Assembly (NCBI RefSeq): GCF_006912135.1 | Contig: NZ_VIRS01000029.1 | Span: 1 to 64,000, forward strand | DNA from: Cryptosporangium phraense | GTDB taxonomy: Bacteria > Actinomycetota > Actinomycetes > Mycobacteriales > Cryptosporangiaceae | Length of the DNA stretch: 64,000 nucleotides | Reading direction: 5' to 3' | Made by a program: the position numbers and the translations under genes | Part shown: positions 261-15,443 of the stretch, piece by piece | Numbering within the stretch: position 1 is the first letter of the stretch | Layout of the letters: each line of letters begins with the position of its first letter | Notes under the pieces: model-generated | Databases searched by the model: none | Seen by the model: only the letters and a program-made list of their open reading frames with translations | What the model was told of the DNA's origin: nothing

Positions 261-326
261 TGCCCGCCCGTACGTCCCGGTGCGGAGCCCACACTGACGC
301 CTCCGAGCCGAGGCGGAGGTCCGACG

Positions 327-1361
327 ATGACGTCGATCGTGCGAAACCAGTGGTACGTGGCCGCGTACGGCCGGGAGATCGGGCGCGACCTGTTCTCCCG
401 GACGATCTGCGGGGAGTCGATCCTGTTCTGGCGGACCGAAGCCGGTGCGGTGACCGCGATGTCCGATCGGTGCGTGCACCGCCGGTTCCCGCTGGCCGAG
501 AAGCCCAGCCATCTCGTCGGCGACACGGTCGTCTGCGGCTACCACGGCTTCACCTACGGCGCCGACGGCGTCTGCGTGGCCGTCCCCGGGCAGGCCCGGG
601 TGCCGCGGACGGCCCGGTTACGGTCCTACCCGGTCGTCGAGCAGGACTCGTTCGTCTGGGTCTTCATCGGGGAGCCCGCGCTCGCGGAGTCGGTCCCGAT
701 TCCCCGCGCACCCTGGCTGAGCCAGGAGGGGTGGACCACGGTCGCGGGCCGGGAGCCGCTGGCCGCCCGGGCGAGCCTCCTGGTCGACAACCTCATGGAC
801 CTGTCCCACGAGACGTACCTGCACGGCGGCTACATCGGGACGCCGGAGGTGGCCGAGACCCCGATCACGACCGAGGTCGACGACGAGGCCGGCGTCGTCC
901 GGGTGTCCCGGCGGATGGCCGACGCGGCCTGCCCGCCGTTCTACGCGAACTCCACCGGCCTCACCGGACGGATCACCCGCTGGCAGGACATCGAGTACCA
1001 GCCGCCCTGCCTCTACACGCTGCACTCCCGGATCGCCCCGGTCGGCGTGCTCCCGAACGACGACGGCACCGACCCGGACGCGTTCCACGTCGAGGTCGTG
1101 TACGCGATCACCCCGGAGACCGAGCACTCGACCCACGACTTCTGGGCCGTCGCCCGCGATTTCGCCCTGGACGACCAGGGCGTGTCGGACTTCCTCGCCG
1201 AGAGCAACCGGACTGTCGTCCTGCAGGACGTGGCCGCGCTGAACGTCCTCGAGCAGGTGATCGCGGGCGAGCCGGACGGCTACCAGGAGCTGTCGATCAA
1301 CATCGACACCGGCGGTCTGGCCGCCCGCCGGATGCTGGACCGCCTGGCCACCGGTCGATGA
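327..1361 (+). CDS. Rieske [2Fe-2S] aromatic-ring/demethylating oxygenase, VanA-like
   Basis: This is the 344-residue terminal oxygenase of a two-component Rieske system. The cluster ligands are visible as C49-V-H51 and C70-G-Y-H73. The mononuclear iron site is D158-L-S-H161-x4-H166, followed by the C-terminal catalytic domain. Length and layout match vanillate O-demethylase-type oxygenases (PF00355 plus PF19112), which hydroxylate a methyl group and release formaldehyde, or act on other carboxylated rings and terpenoids. The start follows GGAGGTCCGACG. It leads a translationally coupled run with the small ORF at 1358 and the reductase at 1503. The substrate cannot be read from sequence. Confidence 0.9.
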   Translation: MTSIVRNQWYVAAYGREIGRDLFSRTICGESILFWRTEAGAVTAMSDRCVHRRFPLAEKPSHLVGDTVVCGYHGFTYGADGVCVAVPGQARVPRTARLRSYPVVEQDSFVWVFIGEPALAESVPIPRAPWLSQEGWTTVAGREPLAARASLLVDNLMDLSHETYLHGGYIGTPEVAETPITTEVDDEAGVVRVSRRMADAACPPFYANSTGLTGRITRWQDIEYQPPCLYTLHSRIAPVGVLPNDDGTDPDAFHVEVVYAITPETEHSTHDFWAVARDFALDDQGVSDFLAESNRTVVLQDVAALNVLEQVIAGEPDGYQELSINIDTGGLAARRMLDRLATGR

Positions 1362-1510
1362 CCGGGGCCCGTCGGCCGCTGCGGGTGACCTGGATCCCCG
1401 GCTCCGACCTGCTCCACGGCCGCTGCCACTGCGGAGCCGAGCGGACGAGCAGCGATCCGGTGGCCCTGTGGGACTGGCTGCTCGACCATCCGGAGCACGC
1501 CGGTGACTGA
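1358..1510 (+). CDS. Small 50-residue protein with a C-x-C motif, between oxygenase and reductase
   Basis: The ATG overlaps the oxygenase stop (ATGA), and the TGA lies 6 bases inside the reductase gene, so it sits in a tight translational chain. The 50-residue product begins with basic residues and has an H-G-R-C-H-C-G-A-E segment near its middle and a Trp-rich acidic end. This compact Cys/His block could bind a metal. I know of no named family for it. Exact overlap with both neighbours and the clear C-x-C argue that it is real. It may be an accessory or assembly protein for the Rieske enzyme, which is inference. Confidence 0.6.
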   Translation: MTGARRPLRVTWIPGSDLLHGRCHCGAERTSSDPVALWDWLLDHPEHAGD

Positions 1511-2429
1511 CGATCGACTGCTCCGGGTGGAGAGACGCGAGACCGCGGCCGACGGGGTCGTGCTGCTGGAACTCGTCGACCCGGACGGCCGGGCGCTCCC
1601 GGCCTGGGATCCGGGCGCCCACATCGACCTCGTGCTGGGGCCGTACGTCCGGCAGTACTCGCTCTGCGGCGACCCGGCCGACCGGGCCCGCTGGCGGATC
1701 GCGATCCTCCGGGACGCCGACGGGCGGGGCGGATCCGCGTTCGCCCACGACCGGCTCGCGGCCGGGGACGTCGTCGCGGTGAGTGGGCCCCGGAACCACT
1801 TCCGGCTCGACCCGTCGCCGCGGTACCTGTTCGTCGCCGGCGGGATCGGCATCACGCCGATCGTCCCGATGGTGGCCGCGGCGACCGCGGCCGGGGCCGA
1901 CTGGGAGCTGCACTACGGCGGCCGGTCGCGCGCGTCGATGGCGTTCTCCCACCGGTTGGCGGCCGACTACGGCGACCGGGTGCGGGTCCACCCGCAGGAC
2001 GAGACCGGCCTGCTCGACCTCGACCGCATCCTCGGCGGGTCCCGGTCCGGCACGCTGGTCTACTGCTGCGGGCCGGAACCCCTGCTCCAGGCGGTCGAAC
2101 AGCGATGTCTGGCCGGGGAACTGAGGGTCGAGCGGTTCTCGGCCCAGCCCCGGGACGAGGGCACCGCGTTCGAGGTCGTGCTCCGGCGCAGCGGGCTCAC
2201 GCTGACCGTCCCGCCCGGCCGGTCGATCCTCGACGTCGTCGAAGCGGCCGGCGTCCCGGTGCTGTCGTCGTGTCGCGAGGGCACCTGCGGCACGTGCGAG
2301 ACCGCGGTCCTGGACGGCACGGTCGACCATCGCGACACCCTGCTCACCGCCGACGAGCAGGCCGCCAACGACACGATGTTCGTCTGCGTGTCGCGAGCCG
2401 CGTCCTCGCCTCTGATACTCGACCTGTGA
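1503..2429 (+). CDS. PDR/VanB-type oxidoreductase (FMN, NAD(P)H, plant-type [2Fe-2S])
   Basis: This 308-residue reductase passes electrons from NAD(P)H through FMN to the Rieske oxygenase. The flavin motif R50-Q-Y-S53 and the nucleotide-binding GGIGITP (113-119) are followed by a C-terminal plant-type ferredoxin domain with ligands C257, C262, C265 and C295. That domain order (FMN, NAD, 2Fe-2S) is the phthalate dioxygenase reductase/VanB arrangement. The GTG start overlaps the small ORF's stop, and the TGA overlaps the GTG start of the IclR gene. Together with the oxygenase it makes a complete two-component system with no separate ferredoxin. Confidence 0.92.
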   Translation: MTDDRLLRVERRETAADGVVLLELVDPDGRALPAWDPGAHIDLVLGPYVRQYSLCGDPADRARWRIAILRDADGRGGSAFAHDRLAAGDVVAVSGPRNHFRLDPSPRYLFVAGGIGITPIVPMVAAATAAGADWELHYGGRSRASMAFSHRLAADYGDRVRVHPQDETGLLDLDRILGGSRSGTLVYCCGPEPLLQAVEQRCLAGELRVERFSAQPRDEGTAFEVVLRRSGLTLTVPPGRSILDVVEAAGVPVLSSCREGTCGTCETAVLDGTVDHRDTLLTADEQAANDTMFVCVSRAASSPLILDL

Positions 2430-3184
2430 CCCGCAGCGCCCACGGCCTCGCCATCCGGCGGGCGACCCGGCTGCTGGAGGCGTTCGGGCCCGACCGGCGC
2501 ACGATGACGCTCACCCAGCTGGCGCACCGCACCGGCCTGCCGCTGACCACCGCACACCGGCTGGCCGGGGTGCTGACCGAGTGCGGGCTGCTGGAACGGG
2601 ACGACGCCGGCGCCTACCACGTCGGTCTGCGGCTGTGGGAGATCGCGGCGCTGGCCCCGCGTGGGCTCGGCCTGCGCGAGGTCGCGTTGCCGTTCATGGA
2701 GGACCTGTACGCGGTCACCCAGGAGAACGTGCAGCTGGGCATCCGCGACGGGCTGGAGTCGGTGTTCGTCGAACGCCTGGCCGGGCGGCTGGCCGTGCCC
2801 GTCCTGACCAGGGTCGGCGGCCGGTTCCCGCTGCACCCCACGGCGCTGGGGCGGGTGCTGCTGGCCTACGCCCCACCCGACGTGCAGGAAGCCGTGCTGG
2901 CCCGGCCGCTGGCGTCGTTCACACCGCGGACCGTCACCGATCCGCGGGCCCTGCGGAAGATCCTCGCCGAGGTCCGGTCGCTGGGCTGGGCGGTCAACGA
3001 CCGCCAGGTGACGATGGACTCGCTGTCGGTCGCGGCCCCGGTGCGGGCCGGCGACGGCAGCGTCGTGGCCGCGGTGTCGGTCGTCGTGTCGGCCGGATCC
3101 GCGACCGCGAACGCGCTGGCGCCGATGGTCCGCGCGGCCGCGCGGGGCATCTCCCGATCGCTCGGGAGCGACACTTCCGACTAA
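2426..3184 (+). CDS. IclR-family transcriptional regulator
   Basis: The 252-residue protein has an N-terminal winged helix-turn-helix (about residues 25-75, with L-T-Q-L-A-H-R-T-G-L-P-L-T-T-A-H-R) and a C-terminal IclR effector domain (about 80-250). IclR proteins control aromatic and carboxylate catabolic operons in response to a pathway metabolite. The GTG start at 2426 overlaps the reductase TGA, so it is co-transcribed with the oxygenase system. It probably regulates the operon that contains it, perhaps through the palindrome at 244-260, and possibly the transporter unit that starts at 3408. Confidence 0.88.
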   Translation: MTRSAHGLAIRRATRLLEAFGPDRRTMTLTQLAHRTGLPLTTAHRLAGVLTECGLLERDDAGAYHVGLRLWEIAALAPRGLGLREVALPFMEDLYAVTQENVQLGIRDGLESVFVERLAGRLAVPVLTRVGGRFPLHPTALGRVLLAYAPPDVQEAVLARPLASFTPRTVTDPRALRKILAEVRSLGWAVNDRQVTMDSLSVAAPVRAGDGSVVAAVSVVVSAGSATANALAPMVRAAARGISRSLGSDTSD

Positions 3185-3190
3185 TCGGTC

Positions 3191-3407: not shown

Positions 3408-4973
3408 ATGCCGACTCTTCACCGCTACAAATTTCTTGCGGCGACGGTGGCCAGTGCGATGGCGCTGACGCTGACCGCGTGCACGAACGACAGCTCGTCG
3501 TCGTCCAGCGGCGGCACCACCTCGGAACTCAACCTGCAGTTCGTCGGGGTACCGATCAGCCTCAACCCGGCCCTGGCCGGCAACGGCGGCTCGACCGTCT
3601 ACACCGCGCTCGCCTACGACTCGCTGATCCACCTGAGCAACGACGGCAAGCTGGAGCCCGACCTCGCGGAGTCGTGGAAGTACGTCGGCACCGGCAACAA
3701 GGTCTTCGAGCTCACGCTCCGGTCCGGCGTCAAGTTCACCGACGGCAAGCCGCTGACCGCCGACGCCGCGGTCGCGTCGATGCAGTACTTCCTCAAGGCC
3801 GGCGGCCCGCTGGTGCCGTCGGTCGGAGCCATCGACAAGGTCGAGGCGACCGGGCCGCTGACCGTCCGGGTCACCTACAAGCAGCCCAACCCCGACGCGG
3901 CCGGGACGATGGAGCAGTACCACGGCATCGGCACGCTGATCGGCCCGGACGGCCTGGCCAACCCCCAGAGCCTGCTCACCAAGAGCGACGGCACCGGGGC
4001 CTACGCCTACGACAACGCCGGGTCGGTCGCCGGCAGCCGGTACAGCTACACGAAGAACCCGAACTACTTCAACCCGAAGGCCCAGCGCTTCTCCAAGGTG
4101 TCGGTCCGGGTGATCGGCGACCCGCAGGCCGTCCTCTCCGCGGTGCGGACGGGCCAGGTCGACTACGCCTCCGGCAACGACTCGACCGCCGACGCGGCCA
4201 AGGCGGCCGGCCTGAAGATCGTCAAGGCGCCGTTCTTCAACTGGGAACTGATCCTGGGCGACACGAAGGGCACGATCAGCAAGCCGCTGGCCGACCCGCG
4301 GGTCCGGCAGGCGATCGGGTACGCGATCAACCGCGACGCGCTCTCCAAGGCGTTCAACGCCGACTTCACCAAGCCGAGCACGCAGCAGCTCATCGAGGGT
4401 GCCGACGGCTACGACCAGAGCATCGGCTACACCTACGACCTGCAGAAGGCCAAGTCGCTGATGGCCGCGGCCGGGTACTCGAAGGGCTTCCCGCTCGAGA
4501 TCCTCACCGAGTCCGTGCTCGACCGGAACACGACCTACTCGCAGGCGATCGCCGACGCGCTCAAGGCCATCGGTATCACGGTCAAGTTGAAGGTCATCTC
4601 GACCACCGTTCCCCAGTTCATCGGGGAGGCCACGAGCAAGAAGTACGCGGCCGCGATCTGGCCGAGCGCCGGCCCGAACATGTTCCAGAACTACAGCCAG
4701 GTCTCCGGCGGTCTGTTCAACCCGTTCGGCCACCAGGACGCACAGCTCGACGGCATCATGCAGCGGGCCTCGGCGGCCGACGGGTCGGAACGCACCGGGC
4801 TGTACCAGCAGGCCTCCAAGCGCTTCCAGGAGCTGGCCTGGCTGATCCCGGTCATCGCGACCGAGAACGTCTACTACGTCAACAGCAAGCTCGAGGGCGT
4901 CTCGGCGTCGGTGGGCAACCCGAACCCGATGCCGATCGGTCCGACGCCCGACCTCTCCTGGCGTAAGGCCTAG
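3408..4973 (+). CDS. ABC importer substrate-binding lipoprotein, SBP family 5
   Basis: This 521-residue extracytoplasmic binding protein belongs to the dipeptide/oligopeptide/nickel class (PF00496). A lipoprotein signal ends with L-T-A-C, making C25 the lipidated cysteine, followed by a Ser-rich linker. Family hallmarks include the D-L-A-E-S-W-K segment near residue 80 and a Y-D-L-Q-K-A-K-S-L-M-A-A-A-G-Y stretch around 345. The start follows GGAGAATC. It heads a complete importer with the permease, permease-ATPase and ATPase genes that follow. Given the catabolic neighbours, the ligand need not be a peptide: this family also imports glycosides, opines and other organic acids. Confidence 0.92.
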   Translation: MPTLHRYKFLAATVASAMALTLTACTNDSSSSSSGGTTSELNLQFVGVPISLNPALAGNGGSTVYTALAYDSLIHLSNDGKLEPDLAESWKYVGTGNKVFELTLRSGVKFTDGKPLTADAAVASMQYFLKAGGPLVPSVGAIDKVEATGPLTVRVTYKQPNPDAAGTMEQYHGIGTLIGPDGLANPQSLLTKSDGTGAYAYDNAGSVAGSRYSYTKNPNYFNPKAQRFSKVSVRVIGDPQAVLSAVRTGQVDYASGNDSTADAAKAAGLKIVKAPFFNWELILGDTKGTISKPLADPRVRQAIGYAINRDALSKAFNADFTKPSTQQLIEGADGYDQSIGYTYDLQKAKSLMAAAGYSKGFPLEILTESVLDRNTTYSQAIADALKAIGITVKLKVISTTVPQFIGEATSKKYAAAIWPSAGPNMFQNYSQVSGGLFNPFGHQDAQLDGIMQRASAADGSERTGLYQQASKRFQELAWLIPVIATENVYYVNSKLEGVSASVGNPNPMPIGPTPDLSWRKA

Positions 4974-4982
4974 GGGTCGGTC

Positions 4983-5924
4983 ATGCTCCGGCTTCTCGTC
5001 AACCGGCTGGCGTTGTCGGTACCGCTGCTGTTCGTCGTCTCCGTACTGGTCTTCGGGCTGGCGTCGCTGGTGCCCGGTGACGCCGCCCGGACGATCCTCG
5101 GCGAACAGGCGACGCCGCAGGCCGTCGACTACCTGCGGAACCAGATGGGGCTCGACCGGCCCTGGTACGACCGGTACGGCAGCTGGCTGGCGGGAGTCCT
5201 GCACGGCGACTTCGGCACCTCGATCCTGAGCGGTCAGGACGTCTGGACGACGCTGAACACCCGGTTGAGCGTCACGCTGTCGCTGGTGCTCACGGCCCTG
5301 GTCGTGAGCACGGTGATCGGCGTGGCGCTGGGCCTGGTCAGCGCCGTCCGGGGCGGGTTCCTCGGCCGCCTGGTCGACGTCGTGTCGCTGATCGGGCTGG
5401 CGCTGCCGAACTTCTGGATCGCGATCGTGCTGGTCTCGCTGTTCGCCGTGCAGTTCCGGCTCTTCCCGGCCACCGGGTACGTCCCGCTCACGACGTCGCC
5501 GTCGGAGTGGATCAGCTCGCTGGCGATGCCGGTGGCCGCGCTGAGCCTGCTCGGCATCGCGGTCATCGGGAAGCAGACCCGCGACTCGGTGCTCGACACG
5601 CTCGACGCCGAGTACGTGCGGGTCCTGCGGGCCAACGGGGTGTCGGAACGGCGCATCCTGTTCGTCCACGTGCTGCGCAACGCGGCGATCCCGATCGTCA
5701 CCGCGATGGGCGTGGTGGCCGTCGGCATGGTCGGCGGTTCGGTGTTCATCGAGAGCGTGTTCGTCCTGCCCGGCCTGGGCAGCCTCGCGACCCAGTCGAC
5801 GCTCGACCACGACCTGCCGGTGATCCTGGGCCTCGGCGTCTACTTCACCGTGCTCGTCATCGTCGCGAACCTGCTGGTCGACGTGGCCTACGGATTCCTC
5901 AACCCGAAGGTGCGGGCCTCATGA
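4983..5924 (+). CDS. ABC importer permease, DppB-like
   Basis: This is a 313-residue inner-membrane permease with about six hydrophobic helices, the first at residues 9-31. The conserved cytoplasmic EAA loop reads L-D-A-E-Y-V-R-V-L-R-A-N-G-V near residue 205 and docks to the ATPase. It starts 9 bases after the binding-protein stop, and its TGA overlaps the next ATG. Length and topology match DppB/OppB, which pairs with a DppC-type subunit, here the N-terminal half of the following fusion. Confidence 0.92.
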   Translation: MLRLLVNRLALSVPLLFVVSVLVFGLASLVPGDAARTILGEQATPQAVDYLRNQMGLDRPWYDRYGSWLAGVLHGDFGTSILSGQDVWTTLNTRLSVTLSLVLTALVVSTVIGVALGLVSAVRGGFLGRLVDVVSLIGLALPNFWIAIVLVSLFAVQFRLFPATGYVPLTTSPSEWISSLAMPVAALSLLGIAVIGKQTRDSVLDTLDAEYVRVLRANGVSERRILFVHVLRNAAIPIVTAMGVVAVGMVGGSVFIESVFVLPGLGSLATQSTLDHDLPVILGLGVYFTVLVIVANLLVDVAYGFLNPKVRAS

Positions 5925-7771
5925 GCGCGATCCTGCGCCGTCCGCGCGGCCTCGTCGCGGTCGTGTTCCTGGTCCTGCTGACGCTCGCGTGCGTGTTCGC
6001 GCCGCTGCTCACCCGGTTCGGCCCGCTGGAACAGCACATCGAGACGGTCCGCGGGCTGCCGTCGGGCACCTACTGGCTCGGCACCGACATCCTCGGGCGC
6101 GATCTGTTCAGCCGGATCCTCTACGGCGGCCGGTCGTCGCTGCTCGGCGTGGTGGAAGCGATCGTGGCCCACCTGGTCGTCGCGGTGCCGCTCGGTCTGG
6201 TGGCCGGCTATTTCGGTGGGCTCGCCGACCGCGTGATCATGCGCCTGGCCGAGCTGCTGATGTCGATCCCGGCGATCATGATCCTGCTGGCCGTCCTGGC
6301 GATCTTCGGCAACAGCCTGCCGGTGGCCATGATCGCGCTCGGCGTCCTGAGCTCCGGCGGGCTGATGCGCCTGGTCCGTGGGGCCGCGCTGGTCGCCCGG
6401 GAGGAGCTGTACGTCACCGCGGCCGAGCTGATGGGCCTCTCCCGCTTCCAGGTGATGGTCCGGCACGTCCTGGGCCGCTGCCGGGGCGTCATCATCGTTC
6501 AGACGTCGCTGTTCGCGGCGATCGCGCTGGGCGTGCAGACCGGCCTCACGTTCCTCGGCCTCGGCCCCCAGCCGCCCGCGCCGACCTGGGGCGGGATGGT
6601 CGCCGAAGCCGCCTCGGTGTTCAGCCAGGACCCGTGGATGCTGGTGCCGCCCGGCACCGTCATCGCGCTCACCGTGCTGGCGTTCGGTGTCCTCGGTGAC
6701 GTCGTCCGGGACGCGACCTCGGAGCGCCGGTCGGCGGCCGGCGCGGGCCGGACCCGCCGCCGGGCCTCCCGGCCCGCGACCGCGGCCGAGCCGTCGACCG
6801 CGCTGCTCTCGGTGCAGGGCCTGTCGGTGGCCGTCGGCGGTGAGTCCTCCCTGCGCCTGCTGGACGACGTGAGCTTCGACATCGCCGCCGGGCAGGTGGT
6901 CGGGCTGGTCGGCGAGTCGGGCAGCGGCAAGAGCATGACCGCGCGGGCCCTGATCGGCCTGCTGCCCACCAACTGCCTGGTCGAGTCCGGCCACGTCGTG
7001 TTCGACGGAAAGACGCTCGACGAGGGCAGCTTCCGGGCGGTCCGCGGCCGCGAGATCGCGATGATCTCCCAGGAGCCGATGGCCGCGCTCGACCCCTCGT
7101 TCCGGATCGGGTCGCTGGTCGGCGAGGTCGTCCGGGCGGTGGAGGGGCTGCGCGGCCGGGCGCAGCGGGACCGCGTCGTCGAGCTGCTGACGATGGTCGA
7201 GATCCCGGACGCGGCCGAGGTCGCGCGCCGGTACCCGCACCAGATCTCGGGCGGGATGGCCCAGCGGGTCGCGATCGCGATGGCGCTGGCCGGCCGCCCG
7301 CGGCTGCTGATCGCCGACGAACCGACGACCGCGCTCGACGTCACGGTCCAGGCCGACATCCTCGACCTGCTGCGCCGCCTGCAGCAGGAGAACGGGATGG
7401 CGGTGCTGCTGGTCAGCCACAACCTGGGCGTGATCGCCGACATGTGCTCGACGGTGCTCGTGATGTACGCCGGGCAGGTCGTCGAGCAGGCTCCGGTCGA
7501 CAACCTGTTCGCGCTGCCCGCTCACCCGTACGCGGCCGCGCTGCTGGCGTCGAGCCCGGAGAAGGCCGGGATCGGGCAGCCGATCCGGGCCATCCCGGGC
7601 ACGGTACCGGCCCCGGACGAGTGGCCGTCCGGCTGCCGGTTCGCCAACCGCTGCGAGCTGGCCCAACCGGCCTGCCGGGCCGAGGCCATCCCGCTCATCG
7701 ACGTCAGCGGCGTCCACCGGTCCCGGTGCATCCGGGTCCCGGTGCTGCTCGAACAGGAGGCCGCCCAATGA
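5921..7771 (+). CDS. Fused ABC permease (DppC-like) and ATP-binding protein (DppD-like)
   Basis: One 616-residue chain joins two subunits that are usually separate. Residues about 1-265 are a DppC-type permease with an EAA loop around 165-190 (A-A-E-L-M-G-L-S-R-F). After an Arg/Ala/Pro-rich linker (about 268-292), residues about 293-616 form an ATPase with Walker A G-E-S-G-S-G-K-S (331-338), signature I-S-G-G near 441 and Walker B I-A-D-E-P near 465. An oligopeptide-type C-terminal extension with four cysteines (C-R-F-A-N-R-C...C...C) may hold a metal cluster. The start at 5921 overlaps the previous stop. This fusion occurs in other actinobacteria. Confidence 0.92.
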   Translation: MSAILRRPRGLVAVVFLVLLTLACVFAPLLTRFGPLEQHIETVRGLPSGTYWLGTDILGRDLFSRILYGGRSSLLGVVEAIVAHLVVAVPLGLVAGYFGGLADRVIMRLAELLMSIPAIMILLAVLAIFGNSLPVAMIALGVLSSGGLMRLVRGAALVAREELYVTAAELMGLSRFQVMVRHVLGRCRGVIIVQTSLFAAIALGVQTGLTFLGLGPQPPAPTWGGMVAEAASVFSQDPWMLVPPGTVIALTVLAFGVLGDVVRDATSERRSAAGAGRTRRRASRPATAAEPSTALLSVQGLSVAVGGESSLRLLDDVSFDIAAGQVVGLVGESGSGKSMTARALIGLLPTNCLVESGHVVFDGKTLDEGSFRAVRGREIAMISQEPMAALDPSFRIGSLVGEVVRAVEGLRGRAQRDRVVELLTMVEIPDAAEVARRYPHQISGGMAQRVAIAMALAGRPRLLIADEPTTALDVTVQADILDLLRRLQQENGMAVLLVSHNLGVIADMCSTVLVMYAGQVVEQAPVDNLFALPAHPYAAALLASSPEKAGIGQPIRAIPGTVPAPDEWPSGCRFANRCELAQPACRAEAIPLIDVSGVHRSRCIRVPVLLEQEAAQ

Positions 7772-8796
7772 GCGCCGACCCAGTGAGCACGGACGACACG
7801 CTGCTCCGCGTCGAGCAGTTGCAGGTCGACTACCCGACCGCGCGGCGACGCACGTTCCGGGCCGTCGACGCGGTGGACCTCACGATCCGGGCCGGCGAGA
7901 CGCTCGGCCTGGTCGGCGAGTCGGGCTCCGGCAAGTCGACGATCGCCAAGGCGATCCTCGGCATCGCGCCGGTCTCGGCCGGCGTGATCAGCTTCGACGG
8001 CACGGCGCTGGACCCGAAGCGCGTCCGCAGGCGCAAGCCGGTCACCGACATCCAGGCGGTGTTCCAGGACCCGACCAGCTCGCTCGACCCGAGCAAGACC
8101 GTGGGGTACACGGTCGCCGAGCCGCTGCTGGCCCAGCACCGCCGGGCCGGGCGGACGGTGCCGCCGGCCGAGGTCCGCGAGCAGGTCGCGACGATGCTCG
8201 GGCAGGTCGGCCTCGGCGCCGCGGCCGCCGCCCGCTACCCGGCCCAGTTCTCCGGCGGCCAGCGTCAGCGCATCGCGATCGCCCGGGCGCTGATCGTCGA
8301 CCCCCGGCTGGTCATCTGCGACGAGGCGGTCAGCGCCCTCGACCTGTCGATCCAGGCGCAGATCCTCAACCTGCTCAGCGACGTCCGGTCGGAGCGCGGG
8401 ATCAGCTACCTGTTCATCTCGCACGACCTGCAGGTCGTCGAGCACCTCGCCGACACCGTCGTCGTGCTCTACCGAGGCCGGGTCATGGAGTCCGGTCCGG
8501 CCGCGGTGATCCACCGCAGCCCCGAGCATCCGTACACCCGCGCGCTGCTGGCCGCCTCGCCGGTGGCCGACCCGAAGCTCCAGCGCGAGCGCCGGGCGGC
8601 CCGGGAGGTCTACCGCGGTGCGCCGGCGCGGGCCGGCGCGCTGGGGGAGAGCTGCCCGTTCCGGCACCGGTGCCCGTTCGCGATCCCGCGCTGCGCCGAG
8701 GAGCGTCCGGCGCTGCGGCCGTCCGGCGCTGGTGGGCAGGTCGCCTGCCACCGCGCCGGCGAGCTGCCCGCGCTGCCGACCGGGGTGGTCGCGTGA
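7768..8796 (+). CDS. ABC importer ATP-binding protein, DppF-like
   Basis: The 342-residue second ATPase pairs with the DppD-like half of the preceding fusion. Walker A G-E-S-G-S-G-K-S lies at about 49-56, the signature F-S-G-G-Q-R-Q-R near 160 and Walker B V-I-C-D-E near 182. The C-terminal C-P-F-R-H-R-C-P-F...C extension is typical of this subfamily. Its ATG overlaps the upstream stop and its TGA overlaps the GTG of the next hydrolase, so transporter and catabolic genes appear to form one transcription unit. Confidence 0.93.
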   Translation: MSADPVSTDDTLLRVEQLQVDYPTARRRTFRAVDAVDLTIRAGETLGLVGESGSGKSTIAKAILGIAPVSAGVISFDGTALDPKRVRRRKPVTDIQAVFQDPTSSLDPSKTVGYTVAEPLLAQHRRAGRTVPPAEVREQVATMLGQVGLGAAAAARYPAQFSGGQRQRIAIARALIVDPRLVICDEAVSALDLSIQAQILNLLSDVRSERGISYLFISHDLQVVEHLADTVVVLYRGRVMESGPAAVIHRSPEHPYTRALLAASPVADPKLQRERRAAREVYRGAPARAGALGESCPFRHRCPFAIPRCAEERPALRPSGAGGQVACHRAGELPALPTGVVA

Positions 8797-10127
8797 CCGT
8801 CACCTCGCTGACGCTGCTCGGCACCACCGCGCTCCAGGCGGGCTACCGCGAGCAGGAGTATCTGGTCAGCGGGTTCGCCGACGAGTGGATCTACGACGCC
8901 TGGGGTGAGCCCGAACGCGGGCTGGCCGGCGTGCCCTACACGTCGAGGTTCCTGCTCCGCCGTCCGGCGGACGACGGCCGGTTCACCGGGGTGCTCCAGG
9001 TGGAGCCGCTCCACCCGGAGTACGACGCCGCGCTGAGCTGGCAGGTCCTGCATCCCTGGATCCAGCGCACCGGTGCGGCCTGGGCCGGCGTCACCCAGGA
9101 CTACCGGCTGGCCGAGTGGCTCCGCGACGAGGTCGACCCGGCCCGGTACGGCGAACTGTCGATCCCGATCCCGAACCTGCGGTACGAGATCGTCGCCGAC
9201 GTCGCCGAGGCCCTCCGGACCAACCGGCTCGGGGCCTGGGGCCCGCAGGGCCAGGTCGACCGCGCGTACCTGTCCGGCTGGTCGATGACCGGGAGCTTCG
9301 GCCGGGTGTTCCTCGGCGACGGCTTCCACCGGCGCCGTCGCGTCGCGTCCGGCGCACCGGTCTTCGACGGGTACGTCATCGGCATCTCGTCCGGCGGTGC
9401 GGAACGGGCCGGCTACCCGGGCCTGTCCGACGAGTGGGACGTGCCGGCCGAGGACCCCCGGCGGGTGATCGGCGGGCACGACGTCCCGGTCGTGGAGCTG
9501 CTCAGCGAGCTCGAGTCCGAGACCCACCGGGCGATGCTCCGGCCCGACAGCGACGCCGACGACGACCGCTACCGGCTCTACCAGGTGGCCGGCACCTCGC
9601 ACGACTCGCTCGGCCCGCGTCCGGAGCCCGACCGGCTCGTGCCGATCGTGGAGCAGCCCAGCGAGGCCCGGCTGGACCTCGTCGCCCGCGCGGTCTTCGC
9701 CCGGCTCGACGAGTGGGTCCGAGACGGCGTCCGGCCGCCGACCGCCGACCGGTTCTCGTTCGACGCGGACGGGAACCTGGCCCGGGACGCCGACGGCAAC
9801 GTGCTCGGCGGTATCCGCACCCCGTGGATCGCCGAGCCGCTGGCCCGGTACGCCCCGCACAGCACGCCCGCGGTCACCACGGTGGCGGCGGCCCCGTGGT
9901 CCCCGGTCGCCGACCCGGCGCTGATGGCCTTCCTCCGCGGCCACCGGACGCCGCTCGACCCGTCGGTCGTCCGGAGCCGCTACCCGTCGGCCGAGGACTA
10001 CCTGACCCGGTACGCGGCGCGCTGCCGCGCCCTGGCCGACGAGGGGTTCCTGCTCGACGACGACATCGAGACGCTCCTGGCCACCGCTCGCGAACAACTT
10101 CTGGAGTGCTCCCGTGCCCTATCTTGA
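8793..10127 (+). CDS. Alpha/beta hydrolase domain protein, PF20091-like
   Basis: The 444-residue protein resembles the large alpha/beta-hydrolase-domain proteins of PF20091 (Abhydrolase_10), mostly uncharacterised esterase- or lactonase-like enzymes. The probable nucleophile is S164 in G-W-S-M-T-G, a G-x-S-x-x-G elbow. Further support comes from the R-G-H-R-T-P-L-D end region and the D-A-D-G-N-x-L repeats around 325-340. There is no signal peptide, so it is cytosolic. Translational coupling to the importer suggests it opens an ester or lactone in the imported compound. The exact reaction is unknown. Confidence 0.75.
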   Translation: MTVTSLTLLGTTALQAGYREQEYLVSGFADEWIYDAWGEPERGLAGVPYTSRFLLRRPADDGRFTGVLQVEPLHPEYDAALSWQVLHPWIQRTGAAWAGVTQDYRLAEWLRDEVDPARYGELSIPIPNLRYEIVADVAEALRTNRLGAWGPQGQVDRAYLSGWSMTGSFGRVFLGDGFHRRRRVASGAPVFDGYVIGISSGGAERAGYPGLSDEWDVPAEDPRRVIGGHDVPVVELLSELESETHRAMLRPDSDADDDRYRLYQVAGTSHDSLGPRPEPDRLVPIVEQPSEARLDLVARAVFARLDEWVRDGVRPPTADRFSFDADGNLARDADGNVLGGIRTPWIAEPLARYAPHSTPAVTTVAAAPWSPVADPALMAFLRGHRTPLDPSVVRSRYPSAEDYLTRYAARCRALADEGFLLDDDIETLLATAREQLLECSRALS

Positions 10128-10941
10128 TGTGTCCGGAACGAAGCTCTGGTACGACGAGTACGGCACCGGCCCGGACGTCGTCGTGTCCTGCGCGTCCGGG
10201 TTCAGCACGTACCCGGCGGTGCTCGCCGAACCGCCGATCGGCGCGCGGGTGTTCACGCTCCAGGCCCGCGGATTCGGCCGGTCCGACCACCAGTCCGAGC
10301 CCCCCGCGCAGGGCTGGCTCGACCAGTGGGGCGACGACGTCCTGGCGCTGGCCGATCACGTCGGGGCCGAGCGGTTCGTCTACACCGGGGTCTCGCACGG
10401 GGCCGGCATCGGCTGGCACCTGGCCTGGCGTCACCCCGAGCGGCTGCGCGCGCTGATCTCGGTCGTCGGCACGCCGCACGATCGCACCGGCGACACGTCG
10501 TCGTCGGCCGGGCGCCGGAAGGTGATCGAGAACCGGGGCAACGTCGAGGAGATCGAACGGCAGTTCCAGGTCCTCGGCGGTCCGACCGACACCCCGGAGC
10601 AGGCCGAACTCCGGGAGCGGACCATCGGCGCGATCGTCCGCAAGCACGTGACGTACACCGACGAGGAGGCCCGGATCAACCAGGGCATGCCGTTCCCGCA
10701 GGCGACGACCAACGACGCGGTGGCCGCGATCCTGCGCACCATCGACCTGCCGGTGCTGATCCTGGCCGGGATGCGCGACGGCGTGATCTCGCCGGAGTCG
10801 ACGCTGCGGGCGGCCCGGAGCGTCAAGCGGGCCAAGGCCGTGCTGTTCGAGGACGAGGGGCACTTCGTGGCCGAGGAGCGTCCGCAGCGGCTGGTGCCGG
10901 AGATCGCGATCTTCCTGGACGAGCTGGCCGGTGCCCGATGA
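10114..10941 (+). CDS. Alpha/beta hydrolase
   Basis: The 275-residue cytosolic hydrolase has the nucleophile elbow G-V-S94-H-G-A-G, an oxyanion region near S-C-A-S-G-F (25-30), and the C-terminal catalytic His in D-E-G-H-F-V-A-E-E. This is the epoxide hydrolase/haloperoxidase/enol-lactonase group (PF00561/PF12697). The GTG start lies 14 bases inside the previous gene, so the two hydrolases are coupled. In degradation operons such enzymes hydrolyse ring-fission products, enol-lactones or esters. Nothing in the sequence decides among these. Confidence 0.85.
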   Translation: MPYLDVSGTKLWYDEYGTGPDVVVSCASGFSTYPAVLAEPPIGARVFTLQARGFGRSDHQSEPPAQGWLDQWGDDVLALADHVGAERFVYTGVSHGAGIGWHLAWRHPERLRALISVVGTPHDRTGDTSSSAGRRKVIENRGNVEEIERQFQVLGGPTDTPEQAELRERTIGAIVRKHVTYTDEEARINQGMPFPQATTNDAVAAILRTIDLPVLILAGMRDGVISPESTLRAARSVKRAKAVLFEDEGHFVAEERPQRLVPEIAIFLDELAGAR

Positions 10942-12182
10942 CGGCCGGGCAGAAGCCGCTGCGTGGCCGGGTCGTGCTCGACCTGACGACCGCGCTGGCC
11001 GGCCCCTACGCCACGCTGCTGCTGGCCGGTCTGGGCGCGACCGTGATCAAGATCGAGAACCCGGCCACCGGCGGTGACAGCTCGCGCAACAACGCCCCCT
11101 ACCTGGGGGAGGGCGGGCTGCGTCCGGACCGGGGGAGCGCCGAGGACATGTCGGTCTCGGTGATCGCCCGGGCCCGCAACAAGCAGAGCATCACGCTCAA
11201 CCTCAAGCAGTCCGCGGCCAGGGCGGTCTTCCTCGAGCTCGTCGAGCACGCCGACATCGTGGTCGAGAACTACGCGGCCGGCACCGCCGACCGGCTCGGC
11301 ATCGGGCACGAGGCCTGCAAGCAGGTCAACCCGCGGATCATCTACGCGTCGATCAGCGGGTTCGGCGCCCAGGGTGCGCCCGGCTCGGGCAAGGCCATGG
11401 ACTCGATCATCCAGGCGCTGTCCGGCGTGATGTTCACGTCCGGGGAGCCGGACAGCGACCCGGTGCGGGTCGGGCTGCCGGTCGCCGACCTGCTGGCCCC
11501 GCTGTTCGCGGTGATCGGGGTGCTGTCGGCGGTCATCGAGGTCGAGCAGGGCGGTACCGGTCAGCAGGTCGACGTCTCGATGCTCGGCGCGCTCACGTCG
11601 CTGCTGTCGATCGAGCCGTTCGACGCGTTCGAGCAGCTGGGCCTGCCGACCCGGACCGGCCGGACGCTCCCTCGCCTGGCGCCGTTCGGCCTGTTCCCGG
11701 CGGCCGACGGGTGGGTCGCGCTGTGCGCGCCCACCGACACGTTCGCCGCCGGGGTGTTCCGCGCGCTCGGGACCCCGGAGCTGGCCGACGACCCGCGCTT
11801 CCGGACCCGCGACCGCCGGGTCGGCAACGCCACCGACCTGCACGCCCAGATCGACGAGTGGACCAGCAAGCACACCACCGAGGAGATCGTGGCCCTGCTC
11901 GCCGAGCAGGGCGTTCCCGCGGCCCCGGTCCGGGAGCCGGCCGACGCGATCCACGACGACCTCGTGCGGCAGCGCGGCGAGGTCGTCGACCTCGAGCACC
12001 CGGACTACGGGGCCACCGCCCGGGTGTCCGGTCCGGGCCTGCCGATCCGGTTCTCGGAGTCGGCGGCCGGCTTCGACCGGCCCGCGCCCCGGCTGGGCGA
12101 GCACACCGACGAGATCCTGCGCACGCTGCTGGGGTACGACGCCGAGCAGATCGCCGCCCTGCGGCAGAACGGCGCCCTGTGA
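10938..12182 (+). CDS. Family III CoA-transferase (CaiB/BaiF)
   Basis: The 414-residue protein belongs to PF02515. It moves CoA from a donor thioester to a carboxylic acid. The N-terminal R-V-V-L-D-L-T-T-A-L-A-G-P-Y-A and A-T-V-I-K-I-E-N are diagnostic, and the catalytic aspartate is D155 in K-A-M-D-S-I-I-Q-A-L-S-G. The ATG overlaps the preceding hydrolase's stop and its TGA overlaps the GTG of the dehydratase-like gene. In anaerobes the same pairing of CoA-transferase and 2-hydroxyacyl-CoA dehydratase activates 2-hydroxy acids, so this gene strongly suggests the pathway runs through CoA thioesters. Confidence 0.93.
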   Translation: MTAGQKPLRGRVVLDLTTALAGPYATLLLAGLGATVIKIENPATGGDSSRNNAPYLGEGGLRPDRGSAEDMSVSVIARARNKQSITLNLKQSAARAVFLELVEHADIVVENYAAGTADRLGIGHEACKQVNPRIIYASISGFGAQGAPGSGKAMDSIIQALSGVMFTSGEPDSDPVRVGLPVADLLAPLFAVIGVLSAVIEVEQGGTGQQVDVSMLGALTSLLSIEPFDAFEQLGLPTRTGRTLPRLAPFGLFPAADGWVALCAPTDTFAAGVFRALGTPELADDPRFRTRDRRVGNATDLHAQIDEWTSKHTTEEIVALLAEQGVPAAPVREPADAIHDDLVRQRGEVVDLEHPDYGATARVSGPGLPIRFSESAAGFDRPAPRLGEHTDEILRTLLGYDAEQIAALRQNGAL

Positions 12183-13252
12183 CCGCTCTCGCCACCCTCG
12201 ACGAGGCCTACACCGATCGGTACGCCCGGGCCCGGTCCTGGCGCGAGCAGGGCGGGACCGTCGTCGGGTACGTCGGGGCCGACGTGCCGGTCGAGCTGAT
12301 CACCGCGGCCGGTGCGCTCCCGGTCCGGCTCGCCGGTCGTCCCGGGCGGCCGGTCGGCCGCGCGGTCGACTACCTGGGCTCCGGCGTCGACGCGGCCACG
12401 CTGAGCCTGTTCGCCGGGCTGCTCGACGATGCCCCGCCGATCGACCTGCTGCTGGTCTCGCACGACCGTGAGGCCTCCCTCCAGCTGTTCTACGCGCTCC
12501 GCGAGATCCGCCGGCTGGGGCTGGAGCCCCAGTTGCCCGAGACCTGGCTCGTCGACGTGCTGCACCTGCCGCACCGCAGCACGGCCGCCTACAACCTGGT
12601 GCGCCTGCGGGAGCTCCGCACCCGCCTGCAGCGGTTCCTCGGCGTGTCGATCGACGCCGACGCGCTGGCCGCGGCCGTCACGGCGCACGACCGGATCCGC
12701 ACCGCCTGGCGGGAGCTGGCCGCGCTCCGGGGCGACGAGCGGCGCGCGCTGACCGGGGTCGAGGCGCTCACCGTGATCGGCGCGGGCGGCACCCTGCCGG
12801 CCGACGAGTACGAGCCGCTGGTGCGGCGGGCACTCGACGAGCTGGCCGGCCGGGAGCCGCGGCCGGGCGTCCCCCTGGTGGTGACCGGCAGCGCGCACGA
12901 CGAGCCCGGGGTCTACCGCGACCTGGAGGACGACGGGTGGCTGGTCGTGGTCGAAGACCACGACTGCGGCAACGCGGCGGGCGGGCCGGAGATGACGCCG
13001 ACGCTCGAAGGCCTGGCCGAGTGGTACCAGAACCGGGTGGTCACCGAGTCCGCGGCCGCCGCGGTGGCTCGGACCAGTGCCCAGGGCGTCCTCAGCTACG
13101 TGCGGAAACACGACGACGGTCCGCTGTGGGACTTCCGCGGGATCGACGCCACCGTCCCGGTGCCGGCCGCGCTGGTGAGCGCTCAGGACTACGGCGCGGT
13201 CGACCTGGCGGCCGTCCGCGCCGGACTGAAGACCGTAGGAGACCGACGATGA
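12179..13252 (+). CDS. 2-hydroxyacyl-CoA dehydratase / benzoyl-CoA reductase family subunit, Cys-poor
   Basis: The 357-residue protein shows the HgdB/BcrC/FldC fold (PF06050): V-G-Y-V-G-A-D-V-P-V-E-L-I-T-A-A-G near the N-terminus, a central S-H-D-R-E segment and the late V-E-D-H-D-C-G-N. Characterised relatives bind a [4Fe-4S] cluster through several cysteines, but I see only one cysteine here, C263; the usual cysteine-bearing positions are occupied by D-R-E-A-S-L. It probably forms a heterodimer with the next protein. No activator ATPase of the HgdC type is present in the window. The family call is fairly secure; activity is not. Confidence 0.78.
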   Translation: MTALATLDEAYTDRYARARSWREQGGTVVGYVGADVPVELITAAGALPVRLAGRPGRPVGRAVDYLGSGVDAATLSLFAGLLDDAPPIDLLLVSHDREASLQLFYALREIRRLGLEPQLPETWLVDVLHLPHRSTAAYNLVRLRELRTRLQRFLGVSIDADALAAAVTAHDRIRTAWRELAALRGDERRALTGVEALTVIGAGGTLPADEYEPLVRRALDELAGREPRPGVPLVVTGSAHDEPGVYRDLEDDGWLVVVEDHDCGNAAGGPEMTPTLEGLAEWYQNRVVTESAAAAVARTSAQGVLSYVRKHDDGPLWDFRGIDATVPVPAALVSAQDYGAVDLAAVRAGLKTVGDRR

Positions 13253-14487
13253 CCGACCGCCTCCCCTCGGCCGGGGCCGCGCTGGCGCACCAGCGGACCT
13301 GGTTCGCCGAGCTCCAGCGCCGGGCGGCCGACGGCGAGCCGGTGGTCCTGGCCAACGCCGACGCCCCCCAGGAGATCTTCCGGGCGCTGGACGTGCCCTA
13401 CGTGGTCAATCAGTGGTGGGCGTCGATCATCGGGGCCAAGCAGCTCTCCGGCGCGTACCTGAGCCGCCTGCGTGGCCTCGGTTTCCCCGACACGAGCGAG
13501 CAGTACAACTCGCTGGCCCTGGCCGGGCTGCTCGGTCCGGACGCCGACGGCGGCCCGTGGGGCGGCCTGCCCCGCCCGTCGCTGGTCGTCGCGGAGACGT
13601 CCGGGGACGCGCTGCACAAGGTGTTCCAGGCCTGGGAGACCGAGCTCGGGGTGCCGTACTACGCGTTCGAGAGCGCGGCCGAGCCGGACGTGCCGATCAA
13701 CTGGTGGGAGCTGATGCCCGACCGGTGGGAGCAGGCGATCGGGCCGGCCCGGATCGACCTGATGACCGAGGAGCTGCTCGGGCTGATCCGGCACGTGGAG
13801 ACGCTGACCGGCCGGGCCCTGCGCCAGTCCCGGCTGCGCGAGGTCATGCGGCTGGCGAACGAGCAGGCCGAGTGGAACCGGCGGACCCGCGATCTGCTGG
13901 CCCGGGTGCGCCCGTGCCCGATCCGGGTCAGCGACGTGATCCCGAGCGTGATGATCCCGCAGTGGCACCGGGGCACCCAGTGGGCGGTGGACGCGGCCGA
14001 GCGGCTCTACCACGAGGTGCGCGAGCGGATCGGCACCGGCGTCGGCGACGAGCCGGAGCGGCTCCGGCTGATGTGGATCGGCCGGGGGCTCTGGCACGAC
14101 ATGGACGTCTACCGGCGGTTCGAGCGGTCGCACGGCGCGGTGTTCGTCTGGTCGATGTACCTGGCGCTCGCGGCCGACGCCTACGCCCGCTACGGCGACG
14201 ACCCGCTGCGCGCGCTGGCCGCCCGGTTCTGCGCGTTCCACGATCAGATGTACACGCCGCCCTGGAGCGGGGAGTGGTACGTCAAGGAGGCGCGCACCCA
14301 TGGCGTCCAGGGGGCGATCCACCTGATCAGCGCCGACTCGCGCAACGCCTGGGCGACGACCAGGTGCCTGCGCCAGGCCGGCGTCGACGTCCTGGAGATC
14401 GAGCTGGAGAACGCGGACGCCCGGGCGTACGACGCGGACGACGTGAACCGGCGGATCGAAACCTGGCTCGACGGGTTGGCCTCGTGA
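13249..14487 (+). CDS. Second 2-hydroxyacyl-CoA dehydratase family subunit
   Basis: This 412-residue partner of the preceding protein is HgdA/BcrB-like (PF06050). The N-terminal V-V-L-A-N-A-D-A-P-Q-E-I-F-R-A and the C-terminal H-G-V-Q-G-A-I-H-L-I (351-360) fit the family. Cysteines occur only at 223, 328 and 373. The family's usual C-terminal serine-cysteine ligand position reads S-A-D-S-R here. It is unusually rich in Trp and Tyr around 55-60, 150-160 and 335-345. The start overlaps the previous stop. With the CoA-transferase it implies a reaction on a CoA thioester, perhaps without the radical iron-sulfur chemistry of anaerobic relatives. Confidence 0.78.
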   Translation: MTDRLPSAGAALAHQRTWFAELQRRAADGEPVVLANADAPQEIFRALDVPYVVNQWWASIIGAKQLSGAYLSRLRGLGFPDTSEQYNSLALAGLLGPDADGGPWGGLPRPSLVVAETSGDALHKVFQAWETELGVPYYAFESAAEPDVPINWWELMPDRWEQAIGPARIDLMTEELLGLIRHVETLTGRALRQSRLREVMRLANEQAEWNRRTRDLLARVRPCPIRVSDVIPSVMIPQWHRGTQWAVDAAERLYHEVRERIGTGVGDEPERLRLMWIGRGLWHDMDVYRRFERSHGAVFVWSMYLALAADAYARYGDDPLRALAARFCAFHDQMYTPPWSGEWYVKEARTHGVQGAIHLISADSRNAWATTRCLRQAGVDVLEIELENADARAYDADDVNRRIETWLDGLAS

Positions 14488-15443
14488 CGGCGGAGGTCGA
14501 ATTCCGGCTGCCCCGAGCGCAGGGAGGACCGAACCCGCAGCACCTGTTCGTCACGCTGTTCGGCGACTACTGGTGGGCCCGGGCCGAGCACCTCCCGTCG
14601 GCCGGGCTCGTCGCGCTGGCCGGCGAGTTCGGGATCTCGTCGGCCTCGGCCCGGGCCGCGCTGAGCCGGTTGCGCAGGCGACAGCTGCTGTCCGCGTCGA
14701 AGATCGGGCGCCACACCTACTACGGCCTCGCGCCCACGACCCGGCAGACGATCGTCGAGGGCGGCAGCCGTATCCTCTCGTTCGGGATGGACGACGACCC
14801 GGCCGAGTGGGACGGCACCTGGCTGGTCGTCGCGTTCTCGATCCCCGAGGACCAGCGGGACGTCCGGCACACGCTGCGGACCCGGCTGCGCTGGCTCGGG
14901 TTCGCCTGCCTCTACGACGGCGTCTGGGTGTCGGCGGGCGGCTCGGCCGGCGGCGACGCGTCGGCCGCGGAGGCCAAGGCCGTCGTGCGCGAATGCGGCA
15001 TTCGGGACGCCAGCATCTTCCGCGCGACCAGCCTCGACTCGGTCGGCGGGGACACCGGCCGGCACCCGCTGTCGGCCTGGGACCTCGACCAGCTGCGGAC
15101 CGCCTACCAGGAGTTCATCGACCGCTTCGAGCCGCTCTACCAGCGCATTCTCGACGGCGACATCCGGTCGAGCGAGGCTCTGGTCGAGCGCACCGCGGTG
15201 ATGGACGTGTGGCGCTCGTTCCCCGGGCTCGATCCGGGCCTGCCCAGCCAGGTGCTTCCGGCCGGCTGGCCGCGGCACCGGGCCCGGGAGGTGTTCGCCA
15301 GCGTCTACGACGCGCTGGGGCCGCTGGCTCAGGTCCGTTTCCAGCACATCCTGTCCCAGCACGCCCCGGGGCTGGCGCCGCTCGTCGACCATCACCTGAC
15401 GACGTCCGGGCCGATGGTCGGGATCGGCGTTTCCCGCCCGTAG
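14484..15443 (+). CDS. PaaX-family transcriptional regulator
   Basis: The 319-residue regulator has the PaaX N-terminal winged helix (L-F-V-T-L-F-G-D-Y-W near residue 25, then A-L-A-G-E-F-G-I-S-S-A-S-A-R-A-A-L-S-R-L) and the long PaaX effector domain. PaaX of the phenylacetate pathway is released from DNA by phenylacetyl-CoA, a CoA thioester, so a PaaX member in an operon with a CoA-transferase suggests it senses the pathway's own CoA ester. The GTG start overlaps the dehydratase stop. Its TAG ends immediately before a LacI operator at 15444. Confidence 0.88.
   Translation: MTAEVEFRLPRAQGGPNPQHLFVTLFGDYWWARAEHLPSAGLVALAGEFGISSASARAALSRLRRRQLLSASKIGRHTYYGLAPTTRQTIVEGGSRILSFGMDDDPAEWDGTWLVVAFSIPEDQRDVRHTLRTRLRWLGFACLYDGVWVSAGGSAGGDASAAEAKAVVRECGIRDASIFRATSLDSVGGDTGRHPLSAWDLDQLRTAYQEFIDRFEPLYQRILDGDIRSSEALVERTAVMDVWRSFPGLDPGLPSQVLPAGWPRHRAREVFASVYDALGPLAQVRFQHILSQHAPGLAPLVDHHLTTSGPMVGIGVSRP

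Follow-up and report, generated by a model that had tools for sequence, protein, structure and literature searches.

The gene sets HadA-HadBC-HadI and FldA-FldBC-FldI of clostridia encode 2-hydroxyacyl-CoA dehydratases, enzymes of a family (HGD-D) to which two proteins of the locus described here belong by fold. According to excerpts of two studies (PMC11574389; PMC11971306), the reaction known for HGD-D proteins needs [4Fe-4S] clusters held by three cysteines per subunit, together with an activase. Here, we analyze 14 open reading frames (ORFs) at positions 327-15443 of the window, by which we mean the whole stretch of DNA studied, bases 1-64000 of contig C29 of the 8.46-Mb draft genome of the actinobacterium Cryptosporangium phraense (the start of the contig coincides with base 1 of the window). 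In this region, a CaiB-family CoA-transferase gene is followed by genes for an HgdB-like and an HgdA-like protein, the three being called the triad below, and is accompanied by genes for an importer, hydrolases, and a Rieske oxygenase. We lean, by a little, toward the view that most of a single pathway is encoded here, one that tolerates oxygen and breaks down an imported compound, probably aromatic, with an ester or lactone group; its acyl-CoA chemistry would be non-radical and carried out by CaiB and an HGD-D pair free of clusters. A broader proposal, plausible but in our judgment somewhat short of probable, concerns the 2-hydroxyacyl-CoA dehydratase/benzoyl-CoA reductase family: one of its branches, tolerant of oxygen and free of clusters, with Asp or Gln invariant at several sites that used to hold ligands or acid/base residues, would act together with CaiB on acyl-CoA in actinobacteria and some alpha-proteobacteria. 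This would be the CoA half of an undescribed pathway, and the linked Rieske/small-protein system its oxygenase half.

An HGD-D pair without cluster ligands

The loss of the cluster ligands was read from an alignment of 81 HgdA-like and 79 HgdB-like sequences (L045 and L090 being excluded from the latter) with a cysteine-bearing reference pair from another actinobacterium. The ligand columns, A1-A3 in HgdA-like and B1-B3 in HgdB-like proteins, were checked against the solved chains of HadB, HadC, BzdO, BzdN, MbdN, and MbdO, and against the BzdO ligands Cys95, Cys128, and Cys380 named in the excerpt of PMC11971306. The window pair has cysteine at none of the six canonical ligand positions. Three of the six columns are an invariant Asp in the actinobacterial rows, namely B1 (79/79; D71 of the window), B3 (79/79; D312), and A2 (81/81; D120), while A1 is Glu in 66 of 81 rows and otherwise mixed, and A3 varies among Ala, Pro, Ser, Val, and Thr. 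No cysteine is invariant across the 81 HgdA-like rows, and by column counts no row of a relative has three ligand cysteines in one subunit. At the positions of two acid/base residues of BzdO, mapped by counting along alignments, Glu65 is replaced by Gln in all 81 HgdA-like proteins and His131 by Arg in 73, the window protein having His. The idea of a metal held by Cys97 of the HgdB-like protein was dropped, as the window has Arg and 13 of 79 sequences have Ser.

The activase model TIGR00241 (E<=0.001) has no match in any of six triad genomes, the window's own among them; it matches in one of two genomes bearing a canonical cysteine pair, and at the second canonical locus, the contig ends just after an apparent activase start. 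PF01869 was considered as an activase in the genome of the window and rejected: its seven matches at E<=0.01, one of them above the cut-off, lie on other contigs and TIGR00241 finds nothing, so that a kinase-like relative is presumed. The only HGD-D genes of this genome are the two in the window. Their AlphaFold models have mean confidences (pLDDT) of 94.3 for the HgdB-like protein, with BzdN and HadC as top PDB matches, and 89.9 for the HgdA-like protein, with HadB and BzdO; query template-modeling scores are 0.81-0.86 over the best five PDB matches of each. Mean column conservation is 0.76 for HgdA-like, 0.77 for CaiB, and 0.60 for HgdB-like proteins. As judged from the alignment and the predicted models, the pair keeps the HadBC/BzdNO fold and has lost the [4Fe-4S] cofactor machinery. 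An earlier note on this DNA had been struck by an oxygenase standing beside chemistry of an anaerobic type; this paradox fails because both HGD-D proteins are without iron-sulfur ligands and TIGR00241 matches nothing in the genome.

Linkage of the oxygenase and CoA genes

The 14 ORFs, all on the + strand, are as follows.

327..1361, +: Rieske non-haem iron oxygenase, VanA-like, 344 aa (Pfam Rieske and VanA_C; CxH/CxxH and D-x2-H-x4-H motifs read in the sequence)
1358..1510, +: 50-aa ORF with a CxCG...HP motif, putative small metal-binding accessory protein (conserved in relatives)
1503..2429, +: ferredoxin-NAD(P)H reductase with a C-terminal plant-type [2Fe-2S] domain (Pfam Fer2, NAD_binding_1)
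2426..3184, +: IclR-family regulator, PcaR/PcaU/PobR-like (Pfam HTH_IclR, IclR_C; TIGR02431 at 148.8 bits, below its cut-off of 284.75)
3408..4973, +: substrate-binding protein of family 5 (SBP5), lipoprotein of a Dpp-type ABC importer (PF00496, 6.1e-61; lipobox read in the sequence)
4983..5924, +: ABC permease 1, DppB-like (PF00528, 3.3e-35; adjoins SBP5 in relatives)
5921..7771, +: ABC permease 2 fused to ATPase 1, DppC-DppD (PF00528, PF00005, and oligo_HPY in a single ORF)
7768..8796, +: ABC ATPase 2, DppF-like (PF00005, oligo_HPY)
8793..10127, +: Abhydrolase_10 hydrolase (ABH10), 444 aa (PF20091, 9.3e-87)
10114..10941, +: alpha/beta hydrolase (ABH), PcaD (enol-lactonase)-like (Pfam Abhydrolase_1; TIGR02427 at 8e-21 and 74.6 bits, below its cut-off of 255.85)
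10938..12182, +: CaiB/family III CoA-transferase (PF02515, 4.8e-113)
12179..13252, +: HgdB-like HGD-D protein without iron-sulfur ligands (PF06050)
13249..14487, +: HgdA-like HGD-D protein without iron-sulfur ligands (PF06050)
14484..15443, +: PaaX-like repressor (Pfam PaaX, PaaX_M, PaaX_C)

All 14 genes are found together within 15.9 kb in Actinoallomurus iriomotensis (L187), where PaaX-CaiB-HgdA-HgdB lie on one strand and a divergent arm carries SBP5, a permease, a fused permease-ATPase, an ATPase, ABH10, ABH, the Rieske oxygenase, the small ORF, the reductase, and IclR. The HgdA of this locus forms a long, early branch of the tree whose placement is not firm, and that of the window stands at the base of the clade with Dpp importers (support 100/99). 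One front end thus goes with different triads, which is what functional coupling would lead one to expect. Streptomyces sp. HPF1205 holds, within 22.3 kb, the reductase, small ORF, Rieske oxygenase, and IclR genes, a short-chain dehydrogenase/reductase (SDR), an amidohydrolase-2, an AMP-ligase, and two PaaX genes, along with SBP5 and the rest of the importer, ABH10, ABH, CapA, CaiB, HgdB, and HgdA. Because the 14 genes recur together in both, the pairing of Rieske and CoA-thioester genes looks functional rather than accidental, as far as gene order can tell. A. iriomotensis also carries a second, distant triad (L079) with a Liv-type importer and CapA, and this suggests that its two triads serve different substrates.

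If one Rieske ortholog per genome of about 8.5 Mb is assumed, about 0.14 cases of linkage within 20 kb would be expected by chance among 30 triad genomes, against two found apart from the window (P ~0.009), an estimate that ignores kinship and is to be read with the facts that part of the 30 were inspected and that Actinoallomurus has two triads. These 30 come from a search of 50 of the 80 triad genomes at E<=1e-100, in which 30 had a Rieske ortholog, as against 31 of 394 genomes of the class at the same threshold. In a sample of genomes of the class, the ortholog is present in 4 of 6 triad genomes versus 27 of 388 others (Fisher p 0.0004, kinship ignored). Among 199 Streptomyces genomes, 76 have it, including all three triad genomes of that sample; with more triad genomes the figures become 8 of 9 versus 73 of 196 (p 0.003, kinship ignored, several of the nine being close kin). 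The nine comprise seven from the 50-genome search, G225 (present), and G199 (absent), with G474 and G571 excluded.

Nine Rieske loci were read at up to 20 kb. With the genes following HgdA in Microbispora and Nonomuraea as reference, one locus of the Microbispora group (L133) has an SDR 86%, an amidohydrolase-2 86%, and an AMP-ligase 78% identical to these triad-flanking genes; another (L135) has the AMP-ligase at 81%, and a third (L136) the SDR and amidohydrolase at 63-68%. Some Rieske loci of relatives thus hold SDR, amidohydrolase, and AMP-ligase genes of the kind that also flank triads.

Partner genes also lie elsewhere in the same genome. A run at about 97.3-107.6 kb of contig C20 (L194) comprises a family-3 substrate-binding protein (SBP3), a permease, an ATPase, CapA (65%), SDR (63%), amidohydrolase-2 (66%), and AMP-ligase (51%), together with a MaoC-type hydratase and a PaaX homolog; a triad is absent there. 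The window and C20 loci together amount approximately to the gene set of the HPF1205 locus plus a second importer, and the C20 run is apparently the half of the pathway that the window lacks. Immediately ahead of the SBP3/CapA genes, at L194:6080-7102, lies a frame for a MetE-like methionine synthase, which is possibly tied to demethylation.

Gene content and neighborhoods

The 14 frames form two overlapping runs, 327-3184 and 3408-15443, separated by a gap of 223 nt (3185-3407); the sole gap inside the second run is 9 nt (4974-4982). GC at the third codon position is about 0.9-1.0 in 300-base bins inside one gene and lower in bins that span junctions, a pattern typical of real genes, and Pfam domains were assigned to 13 of the 14, the exception being the 50-aa ORF. 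The genes that the earlier note had named (the Rieske pair, importer, hydrolases, CaiB, two dehydratase-fold proteins, IclR, and PaaX) are all present where it had placed them, with the conserved 50-aa ORF at 1358-1510 overlooked. Its description of three overlapping blocks on one strand holds for the strand and not for the number of blocks, which is two; likewise, of the regulators that it had put at either end, PaaX does end the operon, and IclR has an inner position, with the Rieske genes on one side and the importer on the other. Past 15443 follow a LacI regulator and a 495-aa frame with no Pfam match at E<=0.001. Over 1-16600, a sigma-70 promoter scan returned no promoter-like site, and a terminator scan returned two sites versus 2.0 expected.

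The importer set, as assigned by Pfam in four ORFs, is complete for the Dpp/Opp peptide type, with SBP5, two permeases, and two ATPases with oligo_HPY tails, and the DppC-DppD fusion is an arrangement common to Dpp-type relatives. Searches of 11 triad genomes gave, for every one, a best match to the window SBP5 with 46-63% identity. The serine of GWSMTG in ABH10 is invariant in nine aligned rows, as is that of GVSHG in ABH (10114-10941) in 16; ABH10 has a match at E<=1e-90 in three of 394 genomes of the class (own included), all three triad-bearing. D155 of CaiB, which we take to be the catalytic Asp of family III CoA-transferases, is invariant or nearly so among 80 aligned rows. The PaaX-like protein, with its three Pfam PaaX domains, fails the equivalog test (136.9 bits, cut-off 264.55), and no NCBIfam equivalog model reaches its cut-off with the VanA-like oxygenase.

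The Rieske motifs, the 2-His-1-carboxylate motif, the VanA_C domain, and the reductase partner together place the oxygenase among VanA-type Rieske oxygenases, and its matches at E<=1e-60 come from 39 of the 394 genomes (own included), a number that falls to 31 at E<=1e-100. Homologs of the 50-aa ORF occur in 16 of 19 Rieske loci of relatives (L112-L130) and in 19 of 20 further loci (L167-L186), in 14 of which IclR is also found. Of these 35 homologs, 33 have CxCG and all have HPx(1-3)H, within a core that is conserved over some 40 residues (W.PGTD.L...C.CGAE....DP..LW.WLL.HP.GH). The ORF has no Pfam or NCBIfam match; its product is possibly a small metal-binding accessory of the Rieske system.

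Relatives of the triad were sought in the contigs of 84,980 species, only at places fitting two short peptide patterns; 102 were confirmed and the best 80 kept, and all 80 loci belong to Actinomycetota. At E<=1e-10, CaiB and the HgdA-like protein are found in all 80 and the HgdB-like protein in 79. The triad is compact (gaps <=300 nt) in 75; the other five are L045, with an overcalled start; L080, where CaiB is truncated by the end of the locus; L083 and L086, where CaiB and HgdB are some 1.3 kb apart; and L090. In L090 (Microbacterium elymi), the HgdB-like frame is broken between the CaiB and HgdA-like genes at about 8800-10000.

Neighbors were counted by tblastn (E<=1e-12, one query each) within the stretch around the triad, which in 70 of the 80 loci reaches almost 10 kb or farther in each direction; this was chosen because a conservation-based gene call had merged the ATPase and CapA ORFs, and the counts are of homologs, not proven orthologs. 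CapA is near the triad in 71 loci and immediately 5' of CaiB in 65, an adjacency that makes a capsule role doubtful. The CapA (PGA_cap) of one relative (L061:6464-7612) gives its top score to the lasso-peptide epimerase model MslH, far under the cut-off. A PaaX homolog is near in 58 loci and an SBP3-type importer in 57, followed by SDR (28), MFS and amidohydrolase-2 (19 each), P450 (18), AMP-ligase (17), alpha/beta hydrolase and PETase-like hydrolase (14 each), CocE/S15 hydrolase (12), and ABH10 (7).

Related CaiB/HGD-D sets also occur in alpha-proteobacteria. A plasmid collection held eight records with an HgdA match, five of which were examined. A Croceicoccus plasmid and two Novosphingobium plasmids carry a CocE hydrolase, CapA, a TRAP importer, an HgdB-like gene (assigned by weak tblastn matches and position; the one that was scanned had no Pfam match), a tandem two-domain CaiB, an HgdA-like gene 38-40% identical to that of the window, and a further CaiB, while Rhizobium sp. 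SSA_523 has the order CaiB-CaiB-HgdB-HgdA. Columns A2 and B3 are Asp in all four proteobacterial rows examined. Beside the HgdB-like and HgdA-like genes on the plasmid of Novosphingobium sp. ES2-1 (L143:7866-9953) lies a 695-aa protein, whose length had raised the suspicion of a CaiB-HgdB fusion; this was rejected, since it consists of two fused CaiB domains. In Novosphingobium sp. EMRT-2, the same 21 kb contain an annotated ring-hydroxylating dioxygenase alpha subunit (30% identical to the oxygenase of the window). A conjugative-type plasmid of Rhizobium leguminosarum (L146) has a cysteine-bearing HGD-D pair and two genes annotated as acyl-CoA dehydratase activases, which is a different thing from the cluster-less branch.

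Proposed pathway and alternative explanations

In the pathway that we infer, with respect to every catalytic step, their order, and the substrate, the Dpp-type importer would take up an ester- or lactone-containing compound, the two serine hydrolases would release a carboxylic acid by opening its ester or lactone bonds, and CaiB would transfer CoA to this acid from an acyl-CoA donor. The HgdB-like/HgdA-like pair may then catalyze a non-radical acid/base or metal-assisted acyl-CoA reaction (an elimination, hydration, isomerization, or C-C/C-O lyase step), with PaaX presumably sensing the CoA thioester. The Rieske oxygenase, its reductase, and the small CxCG protein would O-demethylate or hydroxylate an aromatic acid, IclR would sense this branch, and further steps could be taken by the C20 genes. 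An imported ester or lactone would be the class of substrate, and that it is aromatic is a guess made because of the VanA_C domain and the resemblances to PcaR, PcaD, and PaaX, each below its NCBIfam cut-off.

Several observations weigh against a single pathway. CapA is missing from the window operon and present in 71 of 80 loci of relatives. Rieske genes are found in none of the 80 triad loci, and in 20 of the 50 triad genomes searched, no ortholog was found at E<=1e-100. Among seven loci of the Dpp clade with the upstream side read (L014, L015, L196-L200; one ends after about 8 kb), the Rieske gene is in one, HPF1205, and the SDR/amidohydrolase-2/AMP-ligase trio in two. Twenty Rieske loci from triad genomes include the AMP-ligase in five (three at 79-81%), amidohydrolase-2 in two, and the whole 14-gene set in one (Actinoallomurus), and the co-occurrence statistics are uncorrected for relatedness. 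The earlier note, which had taken the Rieske and CoA-thioester genes as one set, had also said that separate occurrence in relatives would tell against it, and this is the situation in most lineages, because the blocks lie apart or the Rieske gene is missing there; the joined set stands in two relatives, Actinoallomurus and HPF1205. Two unrelated catabolic cassettes that are neighbors by chance, one an aromatic demethylase unit (Rieske/IclR) and the other a unit of importer, hydrolase, and CoA genes, would account for this separation, for the Rieske gene lying on other contigs than the triad in G087, G141, and G225, and for the 223-nt gap that parts both units here. Chance would have to explain, however, why Actinoallomurus links all 14 genes despite an only distantly related HgdA, why HPF1205 links both units plus the trio, and why one Rieske locus bears all three trio genes, 78-86% identical, and further loci bear some of them; we regard such accidental adjacency as rather unlikely.

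As for the HGD-D pair, no HGD-D protein is known to us to act as a catalyst without a cluster, and the loss of ligands is incomplete beyond the window: column B2 of the HgdB-like proteins is Cys in 65 of 79 rows (Ser in 13 and Arg in one, the window), and A1 is still Cys in three sphingomonad rows. These points, too, count against the reading that we favor. That the pair is instead a non-enzymatic CoA-ester-binding scaffold or an allosteric partner of CaiB would fit the change of all six canonical ligand positions in the window and the constant neighborhood with CaiB, but HgdA-like proteins are as conserved as CaiB, if HgdB-like ones are less so, and a pure scaffold need not retain the invariant Q55 and D120 at catalytic and ligand positions of BzdO, which makes this role unlikely in our view. 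Genuine radical dehydratases, with clusters held by Asp and other ligands and an unrecognized electron donor, seem very improbable: an excerpt of PMC11574389 states that Asp can serve as a cluster ligand, and three columns are invariant Asp with Cys frequent at a further one, but column A3 varies among five residues, the activase is matched in none of six genomes, and Cys-to-Ala variants of BzdNO are unstable according to an excerpt of PMC11971306. A biosynthetic cluster for natural-product tailoring could explain the P450s in 18 of 80 loci, the patchy distribution (of 394 class genomes, six, own included, have a match to the HgdA-like protein), and the best score of a relative's CapA to MslH, far below cut-off as it is; it sits poorly with the importers, the PaaX and IclR regulators, the acyl-CoA ligase, and the hydrolases, and no core biosynthetic enzyme is among about 30 annotated neighbor proteins, a part of all neighbors. 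We consider it improbable.

We thus return to the oxygen-tolerant catabolic pathway. If it is correct, a family known for the radical enzymes of anaerobes has a cofactor-free branch that works beside oxygenases, and a direct test of the acid/base or metal chemistry of the scaffold becomes possible. The annotation "2-hydroxyacyl-CoA dehydratase family protein" would then mislead for the cluster-less branch, and the linked gene set would mark a catabolic pathway recurring in actinobacteria, together with a small protein of Rieske systems that has no family model. The impression of the earlier note that the island is undescribed agrees with the literature, in that no description of the module was found in open-licence papers, which is weak evidence of absence.

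Comparison with known systems

The Rieske half is like VanAB-type vanillate O-demethylase in having a Rieske and VanA_C oxygenase with one reductase, and unlike it in the conserved small CxCG ORF between the two and in the IclR partner. A PaaX-like repressor ends the operon, as in the PaaX/phenylacetyl-CoA regulon, but its score is under the equivalog cut-off and 327-15443 contains no Paa epoxidase gene. With HadA-HadBC-HadI and FldA-FldBC-FldI, the locus shares a CaiB-family CoA-transferase gene that adjoins those of two HGD-D subunits, whose models match HadBC; it differs from them in being without cluster ligands and an activase match and in its linked importer, hydrolases, and Rieske oxygenase. 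In comparison with BzdNO, a class I benzoyl-CoA reductase (PDB 8s02), the positions of Cys95, Cys128, and Cys380 are replaced, and those of Glu65 and His131 have become Gln (81/81) and Arg (73/81; His in the window), whereas the predicted fold and the two-subunit make-up are alike, and BzdNO is the best PDB sequence match of the window pair.

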